Shown here: positions 7,595 to 41,556 of the stretch, in pieces | How the letters are laid out: the number at the start of each line of letters is the position of its first letter | Numbering within the stretch: position 1 is the first letter of the stretch | Assembly (NCBI GenBank): GCA_011391695.1 | Contig: JAABQB010000020.1 | Location: 1-51,011 of the forward strand | DNA from: Desulfobacteraceae bacterium | GTDB lineage: Bacteria; Desulfobacterota; Desulfobacteria; Desulfobacterales; RPRI01 | Direction of reading: 5' to 3' | Length of the DNA: 51,011 bases | Notes under the pieces: generated by a model | Seen by the model: only the letters and a program-made list of their open reading frames with translations | Databases searched by the model: none | What the model was told of the DNA's origin: nothing | Translations under genes and position numbers: made by a program

Positions 7595-7629
7595 CTGTCA
7601 CACCGTTTTATATATTAATCCGGTTTCGA

Positions 7630-7812
7630 TTAGTGTCCATCCGGAAACAAAGCTCGGACACAGTTGAGTTTCCAATTCGGAAATAGGCAATTTTGGGCAA
7701 GCTCAAGGAAATCAAGGGATTGCGCGGAGGCATACGCAATGTATGCCGCACAAGAAATCCCGCAGATTGACACCGAGATCGCTCAAAAGGGCCATTTCCG
7801 GATGGAAACTAA
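7630..7812. mobile_element. 183-bp inverted-repeat element (MITE-like), copy 1
   Basis: The ends are imperfect inverted repeats: the left begins TTAGTGTCCATCCGGAAA and the right, read on the other strand, begins TTAGTTTCCATCCGGAAA. The inside holds TTTCC/GGAAA, a GGGATT/AATCCC stem and a GGCATAC/GTATGCC hairpin at about 7730-7748. It encodes no transposase. A second copy of identical length lies at 39857-40039 with about 14 differences. The element overlaps the 3' end of sirC and supplies its last nine codons and stop. It sits in an otherwise tight tetrapyrrole gene run. Confidence 0.88.
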
Positions 7813-8490
7813 TTGTTCTTCCTGCCCCATCAAATCCATATAGCCGTAGCCTTCGCCAAGCACATCAAAAAGAACAGAGTCAATCTTATCAGCATCATTG
7901 TTCTTTATTAATTGTGCAATATCCCTATTTATAAGCTTTTCAAAAAGAGGTTTATGCGCTTCAGGCTCATGATTGTAACGCAGAAGTTTTTTTCTGATTG
8001 CTCCCATTAATTTCAAAAAATCAGCGTATTCAACACCGTATTGTTTTTCGAGATCTTTTCTGATTTTTTTTGCAAAAGCAGGGCTTTTGCCTGAAGTCGA
8101 TACTGCTATTACGAGATCTCCCCGTTTCACGAGCGCCGGCAGTATAAAGTTACATGCCTCCGGGCGATCCGCAATGTTGCAAAGTATATTAAATTTCCCT
8201 GCATCTTCGCTTACCTGCCGGTTAAGCTCTTCATTATCGGTTGCGCATATAACAAGAAACATGCCTTCAAGATCGGATTCAATGTAAGAGCGTTTTATCA
8301 ATGTTATCAAATCTGAACCGGCAAGCTTAAGAAGCTTTTCACTTGCCTCAGGACTTACAACGGTTACGGAAGCCATGCACTCCAAAAGGGTCATCACCTT
8401 CCGGGTTCCTACGTCGCCGCCTCCGATCACAAGGCATTTTCTATTTTTTATGTCAAGATTAACCGGATAATATCTCATTAAATCAATCAT
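7783..8490 (-). CDS. sirC: Precorrin-2 dehydrogenase / sirohydrochlorin ferrochelatase-like protein
   Basis: 235-residue protein of the SirC/Met8/CysG N-terminal family, which oxidises precorrin-2 to sirohydrochlorin with NAD for sirohaem (or alternative haem) synthesis. The NAD-binding motif VIGGGDVGTRK is near residues 21-31, followed by ICATDNEELN and the family stretch CNIADRPEACNFILPALVKRGDLVIAVSTSGKSP (given here only to mark residues about 125-160). The ATG at 8490 is preferred to an upstream GTG because AAGGTG then sits six bases away. The final nine residues and the stop are encoded by the inserted 183-bp element, so the native C-terminus may be altered. It follows the MBL gene closely. 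Confidence 0.9.
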   Translation of the reverse strand: MIDLMRYYPVNLDIKNRKCLVIGGGDVGTRKVMTLLECMASVTVVSPEASEKLLKLAGSDLITLIKRSYIESDLEGMFLVICATDNEELNRQVSEDAGKFNILCNIADRPEACNFILPALVKRGDLVIAVSTSGKSPAFAKKIRKDLEKQYGVEYADFLKLMGAIRKKLLRYNHEPEAHKPLFEKLINRDIAQLIKNNDADKIDSVLFDVLGEGYGYMDLMGQEEQLVSIRKWPF

Positions 8491-8500
8491 TTTTGACACC

Positions 8501-39856: not shown

Positions 39857-40039
39857 TTAGTGTTCATCCGGAAACAAAATTTAGACACATTTAAGTTTCC
39901 AATTCGGAAATAGGCAATTTTGGGCAAGCTCAAGGAAATCAAGGGATTGCGCGGAGACATACGTTTTGTATGTCGCACAAGAAATCCCGCAGATTGACAC
40001 AGAGATCGCACAAAAGGGCCATTTCCGGATGGAAACTAA
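39857..40039. mobile_element. 183-bp inverted-repeat element (MITE-like), copy 2
   Basis: Identical in length to the element at 7630-7812, with about 14 substitutions; several of them are paired in stems (see findings). The inverted ends are TTAGTGTTCATCCGGAAA and TTAGTTTCCATCCGGAAA. It supplies the TAG stop of proS (40036-40038). It lies in the same orientation relative to transcription as the other copy. No transposase gene is nearby. Confidence 0.88.
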
Positions 40040-41556
40040 TATGCTTTGGCGAATATTACCCGCCCGCCGCTCGGCCCGCCGCAACAAACACATTCCCCCT
40101 TTTCTTTTTCCTGCGCAAGAGGAATGCATCTTATGGTAACACTTAAGTCTTCTTTTATTTTTGCTTCGCACTCGCCTGCCCCGCACCAGTGAGAAAGAGC
40201 AAAGCCCCCGTGGATTTCAGGCTGCTCCTTATTAAGCGGGGTAAAAAATTCATAAAAAGCCTTTCCCCCGTCTACCGGCAAAGTATTTTTCTCTTTGAAC
40301 GAGAGGGCCTTTTCATAAAGATTATTTTGAATTTCATCTAAAATGCCTGCGATCTCTTTTACAAACATATCCCGTTTCATGGAGATTTTTTCCCTGTGCG
40401 GCTTATCCCTTCTTGCAACATAAACGGAATCCTGGGACATGTCTCTCGGTCCTATCTCAACCCTTAAGGGAATGCCTTTTTTGATCCAATCCCATCCCCT
40501 GGCGCCTCCTGTATCCCTGTCGTCGATTTCAAATCGTATCTTCCGGTTGCAGTAAAAAACACCCTTCAGTTCCGCGGTAATTTTTTGTACATATTCCATA
40601 ACCTTCAATCTGTCATCCGGTGTTCTGTATATCGGAATGAAAACAACCTGAGACGACGCAACTCTCGGAGGCAGAATTACCCCATCATCATCCCCGTGCA
40701 TCATTATGATTCCGCCGATCATCCGGGTTGAAGCTCCCCATGATACCGTCCATGCATACTCTTCTTTCTCTTCAAAGGACTGGAACTTTATCTCGGAAGC
40801 TTTTGCGAAGTTTTGCCCTAGAAAATGCGAAGTTCCGGCCTGAAGAGCCTTTCTGTCCTGCATCATCGCTTCTATGCAGAAGGTTTCAACCGCTCCGGGA
40901 AATCTTTCGGCAGCCGTTTTTCTTCCCTTTGTAACAGGCAGAGCCAGGTATTCTTCGGCAAGCCTGGCATAAATATCCAGCATCAGCAGTGTTCGCTCCA
41001 TAGCCTCTTTCTCCGTCGCATGGGCGGAATGGCCTTCCTGCCATAGAAACTCGCTTGTCCTAAGGAAAATCCTGGTCCTCATCTCCCATCTTACCACATT
41101 TACCCACTGGTTTATAAGAAGAGGAAGATCCCTGTAGCTGCTCACCCATTTTGAAAAGGCGTCTCCAATGATGGTCTCGGAAGTTGGCCGCACAACCAGC
41201 GGTTCAGTTAACGGCCCTGCAGGCACAAGCCTCCCGTCCGCGTTTTTTTCCAGCCTGTGATGGGTTACTACAGCACACTCTTTTGCAAACCCCTCGACGT
41301 GACTGGCCTCTTTTTCAAGAAAGCCAAGAGGAATGAAGAGAGGGAAATAGGCATTTTTGACGCCTGTTTCCTTAAACATATCATCAAGTTCACGCACTAT
41401 ATTTTCCCACAGGGAATATCCCCACGGTTTTATAACCATGCATCCTCTAACAGGTGATCTTTCGGCCATATCTGAGGCTTTAACCACCTGCTGGTACCAC
41501 TCTGAATAATCTTCTTCTCTCGTCGGAGATATTGCGCTTTTTTCCACTTTTGCCAT
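40036..41556 (-). CDS. proS: Prolyl-tRNA synthetase, type 3 (archaeal/eukaryotic-like)
   Basis: 506-residue class II synthetase that charges tRNA-Pro. Motifs: GCMVIKPWGYSLWENI, YFPLFIPLGFLEKEA, RPTSETIIGDAF, W/RTSEFLWQEGHSAH and a C-terminal anticodon-binding region ending in CCGGPSGGRVIFAKAY, with the terminal tyrosine typical of this type. The editing insertion of the longer bacterial form is absent. Its stop codon TAG is formed by the first bases of the inserted 183-bp element. It follows ispG by 37 bases. Confidence 0.95.
   Translation of the reverse strand: MAKVEKSAISPTREEDYSEWYQQVVKASDMAERSPVRGCMVIKPWGYSLWENIVRELDDMFKETGVKNAYFPLFIPLGFLEKEASHVEGFAKECAVVTHHRLEKNADGRLVPAGPLTEPLVVRPTSETIIGDAFSKWVSSYRDLPLLINQWVNVVRWEMRTRIFLRTSEFLWQEGHSAHATEKEAMERTLLMLDIYARLAEEYLALPVTKGRKTAAERFPGAVETFCIEAMMQDRKALQAGTSHFLGQNFAKASEIKFQSFEEKEEYAWTVSWGASTRMIGGIIMMHGDDDGVILPPRVASSQVVFIPIYRTPDDRLKVMEYVQKITAELKGVFYCNRKIRFEIDDRDTGGARGWDWIKKGIPLRVEIGPRDMSQDSVYVARRDKPHREKISMKRDMFVKEIAGILDEIQNNLYEKALSFKEKNTLPVDGGKAFYEFFTPLNKEQPEIHGGFALSHWCGAGECEAKIKEDLSVTIRCIPLAQEKEKGECVCCGGPSGGRVIFAKAY

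Follow-up and report, generated by a model that had tools for sequence, protein, structure and literature searches.

The excerpts of Aklujkar et al. 2009 (PMC2700814) used here describe 24 'predicted short RNA elements' in G. metallireducens (Additional file 4), left without a name, that carry the palindrome GRCGTAGCGCTGCTACGCC; such elements are also reported from G. sulfurreducens, G. uraniireducens and Desulfotalea psychrophila. Here we describe a short repeated element that occurs twice on contig JAABQB010000020.1 of a Desulfobacteraceae bacterium (positions 1 to 51,011, 51,011 nucleotides; this whole stretch is called the window). An earlier note on this DNA had reported two 183-base copies, at 7630-7812 and 39857-40039, and had proposed from paired differences between them that folding is under selection. 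Both copies lie at these positions and have the same length, and their alignment contains 14 mismatches at 183 positions, in agreement with the note's count of about 14. The window copies belong to a mobile element that is widespread in sulfate-reducer-like bacteria, which is a larger finding than the one the note described. As a whole, the evidence makes it probable, in our judgment, that this element is moved by ISNCY transposases and that its base-paired core is selected as plus-strand RNA.

The element runs from GTG to AAAC. Its commonest length is 176-178 nt, and a second group of copies measures 186-187 nt. It is flanked by a 6-bp duplication of its TANNTA target, has the inverted ends GTGTCCATCC../GTTTCCATCC.. 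and comprises a 5' hairpin followed by an interrupted hairpin of 142 nt. The two copies in the window are as follows.

7633-7809, plus strand: element copy 1, 177 nt, GTG to AAAC (7630-7812 in the earlier note)
39860-40036, plus strand: element copy 2, 177 nt

Distribution of the element

A BLAST search of the element's own genome returned 61 candidates, of which 40 were scored as matches, 22 of them at least 145 bases long. By BLAST the element was matched in 12 of 40 genomes, its own included. R1, a covariance model of the core built from 37 sequences out of 52 non-redundant copies, had matches at E<=1e-5 in 221 of the 389 genomes of the order and in 72 of 395 genomes of the phylum, each count including the element's own genome. 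An exact 19-base word of the core was found in at least 111 stretches in species genomes, and among the 80 word matches listed, 77 were titled Desulfobacteraceae, Desulfobacterales, Thermodesulfobacteriota or Proteobacteria. Three loci with other titles in the genome scan (L031, L035 and L068) were rejected as copies, having only the 19-base word in common with the element. Viral contigs contained no match to one end pattern and none to another word; 13 matched the core word, and none of these was an R1 match. Plasmids (two queries) and phages (one query) gave no match, which does not show the range outside the phylum to be empty.

Insertion and target duplication

An exact 6-bp flank repeat borders 52 of the 127 parsed copies, a set that includes a few misparsed ones, among them one with an impossible length; random re-pairing of the flanks predicts 4.0. 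Insertion is into TANNTA. For one copy in the element's own genome (L011), the joined flanks match the sister genome G004 over 250 bases, with no gap and a single TAACTA. This was the one empty site tested. At the level of genome comparison, these results show that the element inserts as a unit and duplicates 6 bp of TANNTA targets, and its mobility is well supported.

The ends and flanks of copy 1 are located as follows.

7627-7632, no strand: left flank of copy 1, CGATTA, place of the 6-bp target duplication
7810-7815, no strand: right flank of copy 1, TAATTG, place of the 6-bp target duplication
7633-7647, plus strand: left terminal inverted repeat of copy 1, GTGTCCATCCGGAAA
7795-7809, minus strand: right terminal inverted repeat of copy 1, GTTTCCATCCGGAAA as read on the minus strand

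Flanks agree at three of six positions in copy 1 and at three of six in copy 2. From this poor agreement, both window copies look like old insertions.

The window copy has the features of a miniature inverted-repeat transposable element (MITE): it is 177 nt long, has no coding capacity and carries inverted ends of 15 bases each that differ only at base three. The family also shows target duplications and an empty site, and the ends are common to autonomous ISNCY elements. A coding reading of the core was dropped after inspection by eye, as the reading frame of G022 is offset by one base from that of the genus. A promoter and terminator scan of copy 1 returned one site each, which is near chance. 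IS200/IS605, repetitive extragenic palindromic (REP) and palindrome-associated transposable element (PATE)-like elements are not known to have target duplications or terminal inverted repeats. Our element has both and was not assigned to these groups.

Of 390 genomes of the phylum, 12 contain the palindrome GRCGTAGCGCTGCTACGCC of the Geobacter elements, and R1 matches at E<=0.001, three of which are weak, enclose it in 22 of the 30 loci found with this pattern. Most likely, part of the element family is therefore already in print as Geobacter RNA without an assigned function. This coverage would also suit a regulatory small RNA or mRNA element that is used by the host, its multicopy state being a by-product. 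Such a role was suggested for Geobacter in 2009, where the excerpts place one element between dapAB and dapL in two species (PMC2700814). However, the varied insertion sites, the target duplications and the empty site show that the element moves, and the neighbors of the window copies are unrelated genes. We consider a primarily regulatory role in the host unlikely.

A likely transposase donor

Searching L001-L313 and the window by paired ends for an autonomous partner yielded two matches, both of which are pairs of element copies. At each of L130:1-84 and L131:4815-4952, an element copy faces the left end of another repeat head to head, with one TAATTA common to both. The repeat beside L131 recurs in G001, where it has five matches of 114-123 bases; four of these reach the end of the fetched contig stretch or start within 5 bases of it. 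In G008 the repeat continues into an open frame, whose peptide led to genome G078 (one contig). There, we found six copies of a 1671-bp insertion sequence (IS) with ends GTGTCCATCC. Five of the six are flanked by an exact 6-bp TANNTA repeat and the sixth by an exact 7-bp repeat, GGTACTA. The IS protein is an ISNCY-family transposase (NF033593, transpos_ISNCY_1, NCBIfam; 484.9 bits, cut-off 325; Pfam DDE_Tnp_1). Such ends with an exact 6-bp duplication were present at eight of the 20 transposase loci L383-L402, one of which is from G078; at the remaining loci the ends were missing or cut off, or the flanks differed. Two tandem ISNCY copies in G078 (L381 and L380) have one common TAACTA duplication between them.

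In the window's genus (g1), the left ends of the element and the IS are identical over their first 16 bases; in genus g41, it is the right ends that agree, over 20 bases. The likeness does not extend past the ends in the eight IS copies compared. No core was found inside the IS copies by R1 at E<=1 (22 IS loci); where R1 did match, in L382 and L384, the match is external to the IS. Internal-deletion derivatives of autonomous elements are known as type I MITEs. On the IS copies compared, we rejected this origin from the ISNCY IS for our element, whose inside is not derived from that of the IS.

Among the genomes of the order, the element occurs in 17 of the 19 with a close transposase match (E<=1e-100) versus 204 of the 370 others (Fisher p=0.003; uncorrected p values at the four thresholds examined ranged over 0.0016-0.008). 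The ISNCY IS is thus likely to be the transposase donor of the element. Because ends and target duplications are common to the two, we infer that ISNCY DDE transposases move the element in trans.

A core conserved by base pairing

The hairpins of the two copies are as follows.

7633-7661, plus strand: 5' hairpin of copy 1, GTGTCC 7633-7638 with GGACAC 7656-7661; longer in some other genera
7668-7809, plus strand: 142-nt core of copy 1, one long hairpin with conserved internal loops (R1 177.8 bits)
7729-7747, plus strand: apical hairpin of copy 1, GGCATAC-GCAAT-GTATGCC, covarying stem and variable loop
39860-39888, plus strand: 5' hairpin of copy 2, weakened by loss of the sixth pair (the other five fold)
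39895-40036, plus strand: 142-nt core of copy 2 (R1 177.4 bits)
39956-39974, plus strand: apical hairpin of copy 2, GACATAC-GTTTT-GTATGTC

The core structure is the minimum-energy fold of the window copy alone, and it was scored on 34 sequences that had been aligned without structure. These were chosen by hand from best-match loci at about one per genus and cover about 33 genera, L277 and L291 being from the same genus (excluded: L288, which is partial; L293, which has extra repeats in its 5' half; L275, L287, same-genus loci). Across the 34 sequences, 91.7% of 1,696 cells pair, versus 37-47% when the partner is slid by one to three columns. Two-sided changes were seen at 28 of 50 pairs, compared with 16.8 (standard deviation 1.9) in shuffled alignments and 7-21 in slid ones. 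Likewise, the covariation score was 0.318, versus 0.134 (standard deviation 0.006) in 500 shuffles and 0.05-0.08 when slid.

Since shuffled controls ignore relatedness, we added a null model that takes the tree into account. The set of 136 distinct cores from the genus and G022 gave its highest covariation, over all column pairs, at 7730-7746, the only pair at E<=0.05 (E 0.025), with A-T in 70, G-C in 62 and exceptions in 4. In a phylum set of 56 sequences, eight of the nine strongest of 9,591 column pairs belong to the structure. The ninth, 7722-7755, consists of two opposed bases of the same helix, which are G and A in the window copy, G-C in 34 of the 56 sequences and A-T in 8. One pair of the phylum set, 7719-7758, reached E<=0.05 (E=0.01).

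Pair 7730-7746 is also the one on which the earlier note had based its claim. The central hairpin, 7729-7735 with 7741-7747, reads GGCATAC/GTATGCC in copy 1 and GACATAC/GTATGTC in copy 2, so that this pair is G-C in the first and A-T in the second, as the note had read it. Three loop bases, 7737-7739, differ between the copies as well. Across 100 copies, the central stem pairs in 95.8% of cells. For a second, left stem, the note had the letters right (CTC/GAG, 7653-7655 with 7666-7668, and TTT/AAG), but the stem itself was not supported. In 94 distinct left ends of the genus, CTC/GAG pairs in 69.1% of cells versus 85.6% for GTGTCC/GGACAC, and base 7668 pairs with 7809 and not within the CTC/GAG stem. 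The stem of the 5' hairpin is kept while its letters vary among GTGT/ACAC, GTGC/GCAC, GTGG/CCAC and GTTT/AAAC. Its folds were taken from 22 of 43 left ends picked by eye, of which one lacks the motif and one (L270) folds badly.

Mean conservation is 0.86 in the internal loops, 0.85 in the helices and 0.35-0.56 in the apical loop. The invariant loop bases are AA at 7705-7706, A at 7709, C at 7725, A at 7728 and GA at 7769-7770. Within what alignments can tell, the 142-nt hairpin is shown to be conserved by base pairing across genera, and so, from less data, is the 5' hairpin. The note's broader proposal, selection on folding and not on the ends alone, is borne out by covariation above the shuffled and slid controls. 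The check that it had suggested, a covariance model of many copies with covariation measured against chance, was run here and came out in its favor. The ends matter too, as transposon ends.

Paired changes could also stem from mutation, either through template switching in a palindrome or through gene conversion that spreads a few variants. The central stem is a near-perfect palindrome whose loop changed along with it, and a few variants dominate within the genus, as expected from such an origin. However, paired changes also occur in the long interrupted helices, with partners up to about 115 nt apart and beside invariant mismatched loops. Template switching would erase mismatches, and the excess of G-T over A-C reported below is unexpected from it. 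Covariation is also not confined to the central stem, being spread over five of the six helices beyond the terminal one. We therefore regard a mutational origin as highly improbable.

Bacterial MITEs are, in the part of PMC10969869 used here, thought to derive mainly from insertion sequences that lost their inside. A plain MITE of this kind would need its ends alone, leaving the core as a functionless, if conserved, passenger. This explanation is barely credible in view of the invariant internal loops and of covariation that spans about 33 genera.

The strand under selection

G-U pairs, unlike A-C, are tolerated in a strand that functions as RNA. We counted both kinds of mismatch on the plus strand, leaving out three poorly paired pairs of the 50, and found 106 G-T cells and 17 A-C cells at the remaining 47 pairs. 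Counted by pair, the excess of G-T is 22 versus 7 (p=0.008). Most sequences had been found with R1, which knows 32 of the pairs, and the count was therefore repeated on the pairs that R1 did not use. At 16 usable pairs outside R1, G-T again exceeded A-C, by 32 to 9 (p=0.0004). Because this excess is strand-specific, the selected molecule is likely to be RNA of the plus strand.

The fold may instead be selected as single-stranded DNA during replication or transposition, recognized by the transposase or a replication protein, with RNA being irrelevant. The element does move like a DNA transposon, and its right end is part of a helix (7668-7674 with 7803-7809), which would make sense for a fold that acts in transposition. 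In DNA, too, G-T is a less severe mismatch than A-C. Conversely, a cruciform uses both strands and predicts no G-T excess, which does not fit the counts above. The IS copies examined lack the core, and their transposase therefore has no need of it. The near-invariant bases of the internal loops also look like RNA tertiary or protein contacts. Considering these points together, we find selection as single-stranded DNA doubtful.

Plus-strand RNA selection, our preferred reading, would operate as follows. ISNCY DDE transposases would move the element in trans, and active copies would give rise to plus-strand RNA. A host protein or the transposase might then bind this RNA via the internal loops, which is a weaker step, and binding would let the element persist or multiply. 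Inserted copies would subsequently decay under little constraint. A more specific history is possible, and we offer it tentatively. The core may be an ancient, phylum-wide 142-nt RNA gene that turned transposon parasite, not derived from the donor and with its fold kept by RNA selection. The terminal repeats would follow the ISNCY transposase of each lineage, and the RNA would possibly recruit or titrate the transposase or soften the effects of insertion.

Several observations weigh against the preferred reading of a transposed element with a plus-strand RNA. Of the 106 G-T cells, 47 sit at three pairs. G-T barely exceeds A-C (90 versus 66) within the genus, many of whose copies are probably in decay. 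Among 89 copies examined with mechanical open reading frames, those between tandem genes run antisense to their neighbors in 39 cases and in the sense direction in 18 (p=0.0075), so that read-through would mostly give the minus strand. The harshest null passes one pair at E<=0.05 in each set, although covariation stands out much more plainly in the tree-aware ranking and against the shuffled and slid controls. Neither window copy has a good target duplication. No ISNCY transposase of this type was found in the element's own genome, so movement in trans is inferred. Finally, the 204 genomes of the order that have the element without a close transposase match suggest that in many cases the donor is missing, has diverged or dropped out of the assembly.

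Genomic context and variant copies

One gene and one open frame overlap the window copies.

7783-8499, minus strand: siroheme-synthase-like open frame, its 3' end extending 27 nt into copy 1
40036-41556, minus strand: prolyl-tRNA synthetase gene, its TAG stop at 40036-40038 (read on the minus strand) including the last base of copy 2

In two loci from other genomes, L101 and L096, a similar right flank lies directly at the end of the element, as it does for copy 2. Because of these flanks, the insertion of copy 2 at the prolyl-tRNA synthetase stop may be inherited.

Other architectures were found outside the window. In the element's own genome, L201:1795-2085 holds a longer variant in which the left end and the core are about 110 bases further apart than usual. 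The gap contains unrelated hairpin-like sequence, and left-flank words resembling those here are found ahead of the cores in L101 and L273. At L269:1364-1641 (genome G707), a truncated core copy is followed by an intact copy, with 4 nt between them. The middle of the hairpin is missing, with both sides kept, at L096:17-120, L140:991-1125 and L129:2321-2456. The core copy at L293:1425-1560 has extra GGGGA/GACCCATCC-type repeats in its 5' half. Isolated ends in the element's own genome resemble degraded copies. A thiamine pyrophosphate (TPP) riboswitch (Rfam RF00059) lies beside an element copy at L283:1307-1411, on the minus strand of the locus.

Comparison with known systems

Rfam gave no match in the window at the gathering score, none for copy 1 at E<=1 and none over the element in L281, L283 and L267 at E<=1. 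In the literature searched, as far as its accessible parts go, we found no description of the element's mobility, ends, likely transposase, covariation or range. Like our element, the Geobacter elements of 2009 are intergenic and multicopy, are thought to be RNA and have a common central palindrome. The excerpted account mentions no ends, target duplication, transposase, covariation or phylum-wide range for them.

The ISNCY IS (NF033593) has the same GTGTCCATCC ends and the same 6-bp TANNTA target duplication as the element. Unlike the element, it is about 1.67 kb long, encodes a DDE transposase and has no structured core. Bacterial MITEs are usually viewed as IS remnants, whereas here the body of a MITE is conserved by base pairing across a phylum. 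This body appears unrelated to the inside of its likely donor and, judging by its mismatches, behaves like RNA on one strand. This raises the question of whether a DNA transposon can spread because of the RNA that it encodes.

Structured repeats and structured RNAs of mobile elements are known elsewhere: bcr1 has a conserved secondary structure with compensatory changes, and the IS110 bridge RNA has a hairpin layout. As described in part of PMC6542083, bcr1 of the Bacillus cereus group is, like our element, a short, high-copy, mobile repeat. The likeness is one of description, and bcr1 differs in its TTTAT motif, in a suggested mechanism resembling site-specific recombination and in its restriction to one group. 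Chunjie, from the related bacterium Geobacter uraniireducens, is a MITE of 178-235 bp with terminal and direct repeats, and it is likewise similar by description alone (PMC10969869, excerpts). The IS110 bridge RNA is, according to the portion of PMC11208158 used here, a structured RNA tied to a mobile element, as the core of our element would be. Unlike IS110, our element encodes no recombinase, and its inverted ends and 6-bp target duplications fit a DDE transposase. In this case, a structured RNA may owe its spread to a borrowed transposase.
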